From Gammaproteobacteria bacterium (GTDB lineage Bacteria; Pseudomonadota; Gammaproteobacteria; SZUA-229), in contig JAOUNI010000017.1 in the NCBI GenBank assembly GCA_029881035.1, forward strand, positions 1 through 47,643: a stretch of DNA of 47,643 nucleotides, in the 5' to 3' direction. Within the stretch, counting starts at the first letter, position 1. Every line of letters starts with the position of its first letter. The notes under the pieces were generated by a model. It ran no database searches. It worked only from the letters and a program-made list of their open reading frames with translations, and was not told the origin of the DNA. Positions 28,040-29,340 of the stretch are shown here, in pieces. A program made the translations under genes and the position numbers.

Positions 28040-28627
28040 TCAGATCCCGATACCACAAAAATCAAGAATCTGTGCGATATGATTTTCAAAACCAGTGAAA
28101 GAATGATCACCACCCTCTTCTAACACCATTGGGCATCCCTGATATTTTTCCAGCGCCTGTCGATAGTCCAGCGTTTCATCACCTTTTTGCAACAACAGCA
28201 AATAACGTTCCGGCCGGGTAATCGTATTGGTATCGAGCTGTCGAAATTGTTCGATATGACTCTCATCCAGCACCCATTTCTCAGTGGTATGATAATTGGT
28301 ATTCTCACCCAGATATTTTTTCAGCAGTATTTGTGGACGAACAGCCGGATTTATCAGTGTTGCTTTACAACCAAAACGCTCTGCCAGATAAGTCGCATAA
28401 AAGCCGCCCAGAGAACTTCCTGCAACAGCAACATTAGCACTTTTCCTGTGCTGCTCAAACAAAGCCACCAGTATGGACATAGCTTCAGCGGGTACAGGCG
28501 ATATTTCAGGAATAATCAGTTGATCCAGCCTGTTTCGCTGCGCCATATAAGCGTGCAAGACTTTAGCCTTATATGACTCAGGCGAGCTATTAAAACCGTG
28601 CAGATAGATTAATCGAGTTGAACTCAT
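28040..28627 (-). CDS. YqiA/YcfP-family alpha/beta hydrolase
   Basis: 195 residues. The N-terminus reads LIYLHGFNSSPESYKA, with the nucleophile elbow AGSSLGGFYATYLAERFG (Ser about residue 72), the NPAVRPQILL segment, and a C-terminal catalytic His in GGDHSFTGFE. These identify the YqiA group of small esterases acting on short acyl esters; the physiological substrate is unknown. It lies 72 bases upstream of nagZ. Confidence 0.88.
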   Translation of the reverse strand: MSSTRLIYLHGFNSSPESYKAKVLHAYMAQRNRLDQLIIPEISPVPAEAMSILVALFEQHRKSANVAVAGSSLGGFYATYLAERFGCKATLINPAVRPQILLKKYLGENTNYHTTEKWVLDESHIEQFRQLDTNTITRPERYLLLLQKGDETLDYRQALEKYQGCPMVLEEGGDHSFTGFENHIAQILDFCGIGI

Positions 28628-28663: not shown

Positions 28664-28697
28664 AAAAAACCCCTGTAAAACAAGGTCCTACAGGGGT
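28664..28697 (-). terminator. Rho-independent terminator downstream of the HU gene
   Basis: A perfect nine-base-pair stem, ACCCCTGTA (28669-28677) pairing with TACAGGGGT (28689-28697), with an 11-base loop. On the minus strand it is followed by a six-T run (28664-28669). It would stop transcription from the HU gene before the YqiA-like gene. The plus-strand side lacks a T-run. Confidence 0.85.
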
Positions 28698-28719
28698 CAT
28701 TTATTGCTATATGAGTGCT

Positions 28720-28850
28720 GAGCACGATGTAGATTTTTCGCTGTAGCAAAGCATGAATTTCGAAAAAGCGCAGTTTACACGGAGTAAATGAGCATTTTGA
28801 GAATATCCCTAACGTCGCTACGGCGGAAATATACCTCGTACAGAGTGCTC
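28720..28850. repeat. 131-base imperfect palindromic fold-back (MITE-like) element
   Basis: The ends are inverted copies: GAGCAC-NN-TGTA at 28720-28731 and TACA-NN-GTGCTC at 28839-28850. Similarity continues inward: TTTCGCTGTAGC on the left matches TTTCCGCCGTAGC read from the right. The arms meet at 28773-28789 (AGTTTAC / GTAAAT), close to the geometric centre. The element begins exactly at the base after the HU stop codon and lies before the terminator. It encodes nothing. As RNA it would form a long hairpin at the 3' end of the HU message. Confidence 0.65.
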
Positions 28851-29285
28851 CTATTTAGCAGCCATATCCTTCAGCGCTTTCAAAGGTAATACTTTAACTA
28901 CTTTACGAGCCGGTTTAGCTTTAACGTCCATTAAGGTTCCAGGGTTAAATGGATTAGGGACATTCTTACGAGCTTTGGTCGCTGGTTTCTTGTTGATCTT
29001 AATTTTCATCAGGCCAGGAATCTTGAATTCACCGGCACCGCGAGTCTTAACATGACCTTCAATAACATTGCTCAGTGATTCAAAAACTTTAACGATGTCT
29101 TTTCTTGCAACACCAGTTTCTTCTGCAATGTGCAAATATAATTGAGTTTTTGTATAGGCTTCTGCAATAGGCTTAACATTTTTTACTGGTGCTACTTTTT
29201 TAGCTGCAGATTTTTTTACAGACTTTTTAACGGCTGCTTTTTTAACAGCTTTCTTTTTGACTACTTTTTTCTTTGCGGCGGCCAT
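28851..29285 (-). CDS. HU-family DNA-binding protein with lysine/alanine-rich N-terminal tail
   Basis: 144 residues. The first 45 or so are a histone-H1-like tail made of AAAKKKVVKKKAVKK-type repeats. An HU/IHF fold follows: YTKTQLYLHIAEETGVARKD, VFESLSNVIEGHV, then the DNA-binding arm region GEFKIPGLMKIKINKK and ARKNVPNPFNPG. The C-terminus is again basic. The start is the ATG at 29285, with AAAGGG eight bases upstream; the 18 further in-frame codons to 29339 lack such a site. It is a nucleoid protein expected to bind and compact DNA. It is transcribed alone, followed by the fold-back repeat and terminator. Confidence 0.9.
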   Translation of the reverse strand: MAAAKKKVVKKKAVKKAAVKKSVKKSAAKKVAPVKNVKPIAEAYTKTQLYLHIAEETGVARKDIVKVFESLSNVIEGHVKTRGAGEFKIPGLMKIKINKKPATKARKNVPNPFNPGTLMDVKAKPARKVVKVLPLKALKDMAAK

Positions 29286-29340
29286 AGTTTTACCCTTTAG
29301 GTGGTTATTTATTTTTTTAGCTTTAACAACTAGGCGCATT

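Follow-up and report, generated by a model that had tools for sequence, protein, structure and literature searches.

Between the stop codon of an HU-family gene and that gene's terminator lies a long imperfect palindrome. The question it raises is whether this is a structure belonging to HU or a mobile repeat that has landed behind it. An earlier note on this DNA took it for a dispersed MITE-type element that now forms a hairpin in the HU 3′ untranslated region, allowed that it would be gene-specific if single-copy and conserved only with HU, and proposed a search for other copies and empty sites as well as folding of the RNA. We followed this up in the window (the whole stretch of 47,643 nucleotides analysed here), in its genome and in other genomes. 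The element itself is of a known kind; the core that it shares with other families is the part that would surprise specialists.

An imperfect palindrome between HU and its terminator

The element is a 138-bp imperfect palindrome at 28713–28850 (Table 1). Of the extent first given, 28720–28850, the high end stands; an alignment to its sister copies and a covariance model place the low end 7 bp earlier, at 28713 (the model's match for the whole element spans 28713–28851). The repeat does adjoin the HU stop codon, as had been described, but not at its start: HU is on the minus strand and its stop codon touches the high-coordinate end, 28850. The centre falls close to the expected position of about 28785, where 28774–28778 pair with 28784–28788. 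The strong terminator reported beyond the element is also found, in intrinsic form, and beyond it lies a UPF0227 gene (28040–28627). The element thus sits in HU sense between stop codon and terminator, which places its hairpin in the 3′ untranslated region. No open reading frame of at least 50 amino acids overlaps it, and a scan of the window with the core model R2 (see below) locates the core once, in agreement with the single copy noticed before. The HU-family protein (28851–29339) has a lysine/alanine-rich part N-terminal to its DNA-binding domain (residues 63–159).

When folded as RNA, 28720–28850 does better than all 200 dinucleotide shuffles on either strand, with −35.6 kcal/mol (z −2.99) for the minus strand, which is HU sense, and −40.5 kcal/mol (z −3.89) for the plus strand. 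A known Rfam RNA was considered and rejected: curated families matched none of five loci of this genome, including that of the window element (L001), at E≤1, and at gathering thresholds they matched no element in eight other core-bearing loci, the one hit being a T-box elsewhere in L117.

Table 1. Features of the element and its surroundings (window coordinates; orientation O of the core is the minus strand here)
Feature	Position	Strand	Basis
Whole palindromic element, orientation O in HU sense	28713–28850	minus	own-copy alignment
Outer terminal inverted repeat, low-coordinate end, GAGTGCTGAGCACGATGTA	28713–28731		sequence; aligned with GAGAGCTTTGCACGATGTA of other copies
Outer terminal inverted repeat, high-coordinate end, TACCTCGTACAGAGTGCTC	28832–28850		sequence, alignment
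Conserved core common to other families and ERIC	28743–28819	minus	58.9 bits with R2; motif 23/25
Central hairpin, stem TTTAC/GTAAA, 5-nt loop	28774–28788	minus	sequence, folds
Intrinsic HU terminator, also in relatives without element	28668–28698	minus	relatives' loci
HU-family gene, stop codon adjoining element	28851–29339	minus	Bac_DNA_binding match

Further copies in the genome and HU loci without the element

Both the additional copies and the empty sites sought were obtained. A blastn search found five places in the genome, the window's own included, and a core pattern search also found five. The covariance model R1, built from five copies of this genome, extended these to eight distinct loci (14 rows, six of which match the reverse strand of palindromes already counted). 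Identity to the window copy, taken over the longer length, is 62–75% for the other seven. The imperfect terminal inverted repeats of the window element are conserved among the genome's own copies. Two of the eight loci, on contigs C4 and C27, hold a variant with other arms. Judging by the translations, the C4 copy lies between gap and pgk, and the C27 copy (G000:C27:1076-1205, L018) between genes resembling mutL and miaA.

We located HU in 16 of the 24 genomes queried. In two genomes of the same genus (G001 and G006) and one of the same family (G007), the HU stop codon is followed by a short spacer and the same type of CCCCTGTAGAA...GGGG-T terminator as in the window, without the element. Two further HU loci (G003 and G014) have different spacers and likewise no element, and a scan of all five loci with R2 gives no core. 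Because related HU loci have the terminator without the element, the element is an insertion in this lineage. As the earlier note had supposed, it has the make-up of a MITE: it is short, multi-copy, dispersed and free of a transposase gene, with terminal inverted repeats and both filled and empty sites. A clear target duplication was not seen for the window copy or its family, and an autonomous transposon with matching ends was not found in this genome; such a partner may have been lost or may reside in a different genome.

A core shared by families with different arms

In orientation O, the core reads CnGCGTT-arm-TCA-TTTAC-N4/5-GTAAA-CTSC-arm'-GCCTTG. Within it the arms vary freely while pairing and the unpaired blocks are fixed. 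The outer arms of the window element are lineage-specific, whereas the core is not: R1 matches 26 of 40 relatives, many with outer arms unrelated to those in the window. A scan of named genomes with a partial motif gave at least 118 stretches, of which 80 were fetched, the matches listed coming from Pseudomonas, Halomonas, Salinicola, Nitrosomonadales, Mariprofundales, Alistipes and other Bacteroidales, Flavobacteriales, Sulfurimonas and Clostridia metagenome-assembled genomes (MAGs). GCGTT, which is outside the search pattern, is the most frequent pentamer at the mirrored position, where 58 of the 83 matches within the fetched stretches have it. Each outer arm is matched to its own partner: pairing scores average 15.2 there (n=57), against 6.8 with the arms of other loci and 6.1 after shuffling.

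A second model of the core, R2, was made from 30 diverse rows with ERIC and Correia excluded; these rows were in part chosen by a pattern that fixes part of the motif, so some of the conservation and invariant columns of the alignment, A3, are a selection effect. R2 matches 18 of 19 records and reaches at least 150 matches in each of four. It matches 63 of 249 sampled genomes of the element's own phylum, Proteobacteria, inside and outside its own class, and 21 of 148 genomes in a sample of Bacteroidota (the phylum of an Anaerophaga). A viral signature was considered and rejected, the strict pattern occurring in just 10 stretches of the whole viral collection. Outside Proteobacteria and Bacteroidota, and barring contamination, a Sulfurimonas genome (G043, L098) has one R2 match, and two Clostridia MAGs have 22 (G042, L117) and 8 (G055, L082).

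Target duplications in other core families

Two other families that carry the core have target duplications. In G033, a direct repeat of at least 6 bp, mostly 8, bounds 14 of 20 fetched copies (null 3.1%). Among CAGGCYGTTGAAAAA-ended copies in Pseudomonas and G022, with both ends recognised in 29 of the 59 loci supplied, identical 4-nt flanks occur in 17 of 29 (shuffled mean 5.7; 0/2000 shuffles as many). Seven of these 17 flanks are self-complementary (CTAG or TTAA) and hence not diagnostic; the other ten are not self-complementary. The same kind of 4-nt repeat was seen by eye in G049 copies, and some Salinicola copies have a 3-nt repeat at their ends. The same core is therefore carried by elements whose ends and duplications suggest different transposases.

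IS66 is marked by GTAA ends together with 8-bp duplications. It was for this reason tested in G033 as partner of the 8-bp-duplication family, and its transposase was not found there; a partner transposon was not found in P. alcaliphila. Among copies L281–L289 and L299 (P. alcaliphila G044, and G022), longer Pseudomonas ones contain extra hairpin modules inside their arms, and the short L288 and L289 have the ends with the core absent.

Relation to ERIC, Correia and other known repeats

Published accounts (PMC2229807, PMC10969869, PMC2267715, PMC2759123) treat ERIC, Correia and similar repeats as families of their own, each confined to its lineage and with mover and role largely unsettled. A published account of a shared core was not found in the open-licence literature, searches with sequence strings included; the best-ranked matches of these were unrelated papers, except for PMC2759123, where the ERIC sequence is given. 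We compared these repeats with the core by a 25-point motif score taken from A3, which was built without ERIC, with structure-keeping shuffles as controls. The window element scores 23/25 and an E. coli ERIC locus 24/25 (0/400 shuffles reach either); the published E. coli ERIC consensus scores 25/25 and S. enterica ERIC 24/25 (0/300 each). The Correia short form reaches 21/25 (1/400 shuffles). The long form, at 18/25 with 89 of 400 shuffles as good, is not supported as a member. Kinship of YPAL (16/25; 287/300) and RU-3 (15/25; 277/300), whose scores are no better than those of shuffles, was rejected. In 69 kb, R2 scores E. coli ERIC at 26.6 bits (E 8.6e-4), gives 19.2 bits (E 0.04) to the Correia short form and has no match to the long form; under stricter filters it has no match in a whole N. 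gonorrhoeae record. ERIC belongs with the core; Correia fits weakly, and its kinship is possible. A Correia query found no match in the phage collection. Two chromosome-sized (2.17 Mb) N. gonorrhoeae records are filed as plasmids in PLSDB (NZ_CP119140.1 and NZ_CP119142.1).

ERIC (IRU, RU-1; 127 bp) resembles the window element in having the same core order and spacing and in being dispersed, intergenic, palindromic and without a transposase gene. It differs in its loop, of 4 nt against 5 nt, and in its arms (TATACCC..., in the ERIC sequence printed in PMC2759123), which are unrelated to those of the window element. We file the latter as a core relative of ERIC and not as an ERIC, since it has neither the terminal arms nor the 127-bp sequence. 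Correia elements (CREE, NEMIS) of Neisseria are palindromic MITEs too, with GGCGTT and GCCTTG blocks around a GTAC-N5-GTAC centre, but their arms are other than those of the window element. The window element ends in GAGTGCTGAGCAC, whereas the Correia end is TATAGTGGATTAA. YPAL (RU-2) and RU-3 are palindromic, dispersed enterobacterial repeats like the window element, but without the core.

REPs (GTAG and CGTC tags) offer a parallel of another kind, as palindromic repeat superfamilies spanning several phyla. As PMC3733652 defines them, they are hairpins of 20–40 bp with an unpaired terminal tag, the GTAG REPs being tied to RAYT transposases. The 138-bp window element does not fit that definition, and core-family elements in general differ from REPs in their length of about 120–150 bp, their terminal inverted repeats and the target duplications in two families.

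A core copy behind gap

The C4 copy (G000:C4:8555-8673, L016) lies directly 3′ of the gap stop codon, before pgk. gap was found at E≤1e-100 in 31 of 41 genomes queried; 30 loci were returned and 29 used, the incomplete L331 being left out. R2 places a core close after the gap stop codon in 22 of these 29 family loci, with E≤1e-4 in 21 and 0.15 in L316. In the alignment of these loci (L302–L330), which was fitted to the model and so leans towards it, 90.3% of cells pair, and 94 cells are changed on both sides compared with 29.3 in shuffles. Both sides have changed in 20 of 24 pairs, including all 16 of the two inner helices. The helices that covary have few G.U pairs (7 of 323 paired cells, counted from the covariation table).

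Direct changes from one Watson–Crick pair to another fit self-templated correction of the palindrome, by template switching (PMC8794818), as well as they fit selection. If such correction explains the pairing, then the unpaired blocks (TCA/CTSC and parts of GCGTT/GCCTTG) would be the part most clearly under selection. The gap–pgk copies make a host role possible; a purely selfish reading needs none.

Strand preference and gene context

At HU and at the gap loci, the O strand is the sense strand. We sampled 60 elements for context, of which 9 lay inside an open reading frame of at least 100 amino acids (by a crude caller), 49 were classified and 2 were dropped. Gene context of the 49 did not differ significantly from background; in tandem contexts O was sense in 17 and antisense in 9 (p=0.17). 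As a strand test for selection on RNA, G.U was counted against A.C. The counts were 25 to 19 in one set (13 to 14 by locus), 36 to 24 in another (p=0.155; 22 of 23 rows read) and 66 to 41 over all 117 cores, which are not independent. In sum the test leans to the O strand, short of significance.

Origin and possible role

We regard the element as probably a non-autonomous palindromic transposable copy of the MITE kind, moved through its arms, that carries a conserved core and forms a hairpin in the HU 3′ untranslated region. It would have landed between the stop codon and terminator of HU once the species of the genus had diverged, its outer arms serving as lineage-specific terminal inverted repeats for a putative DDE-type transposase acting in trans. 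The folded core may be read by a factor common to the hosts, and may have been retained because it helps the element spread or be tolerated at 3′ ends. The HU message would carry the hairpin between stop codon and terminator, with perhaps a modest effect on 3′-end processing or stability.

The position next to the stop codon and ahead of the terminator would also suit a riboregulator or extended terminator specific to HU, with no mobile repeat involved. We reject this as scarcely credible. The genome carries seven further copies, and in G001, G006 and G007 the HU terminator is present with no element before it; neither single-copy status nor conservation with HU alone was found. A reading that we consider possible, if on balance doubtful, holds that the core is an RNA element kept for a host function, its O-strand hairpin in 3′ untranslated regions being cleaved or bound (by RNase III, RNase E or an RNA-binding protein) and thereby tuning the upstream message. 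O is the sense strand at HU and gap; 21 of the 29 gap loci have a core just past the stop codon, and both partners have changed in 20 of 24 pairs; tandem contexts and two G.U counts lean the same way; and transcripts of Correia and ERIC are reported in PMC10969869 as substrates of RNase III and RNase E. Yet the strand tests all fall short of significance (17:9, 36:24, and 13 loci to 14), G.U pairs are few in the helices that covary (7/323), and the window element folds more stably as the plus strand than in HU sense.

The shared core could, alternatively, be convergence: palindromic MITEs need a stable hairpin, pairing is self-templated, and motif-based searches feign the sharing. The genome-scan pattern does fix part of the motif, and the row-selection pattern more; pairing without G.U intermediates suits template switching (PMC8794818). 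We nevertheless judge convergence improbable. GCGTT lies outside the pattern and still appears in 58 of 83 matches, and R1, built from the genome's own copies alone, already matches 26 of 40 relatives. ERIC, which is outside the model, scores 25/25 against 0/300 shuffles, whereas YPAL and RU-3 fail despite being palindromic, and folding alone hardly accounts for convergence on identical unpaired blocks.

We put forward a broader proposal tentatively, as one that could nearly as well be right as wrong. A single ancient superfamily may unite ERIC with dozens of unrecognised palindromic families of Proteobacteria, Bacteroidota and Clostridia, with a transposase-independent core that persists while terminal repeats, mobilising enzyme and duplication length are swapped; the core hairpin would be read by a widely conserved host factor, with at least one domestication, between gap and pgk. 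A core common to several phyla with differing terminal repeats makes the ERIC question testable, as one of what reads the core and why it outlasts changes of transposase. The arms add a caution, in that covariation in palindromes may reflect self-templated repair and not only selection on RNA. In the gap–pgk copies, with their compensatory change, nature supplies a series of elements that may have been domesticated; in one genome, G005 (L304), two core elements stand in tandem behind gap.
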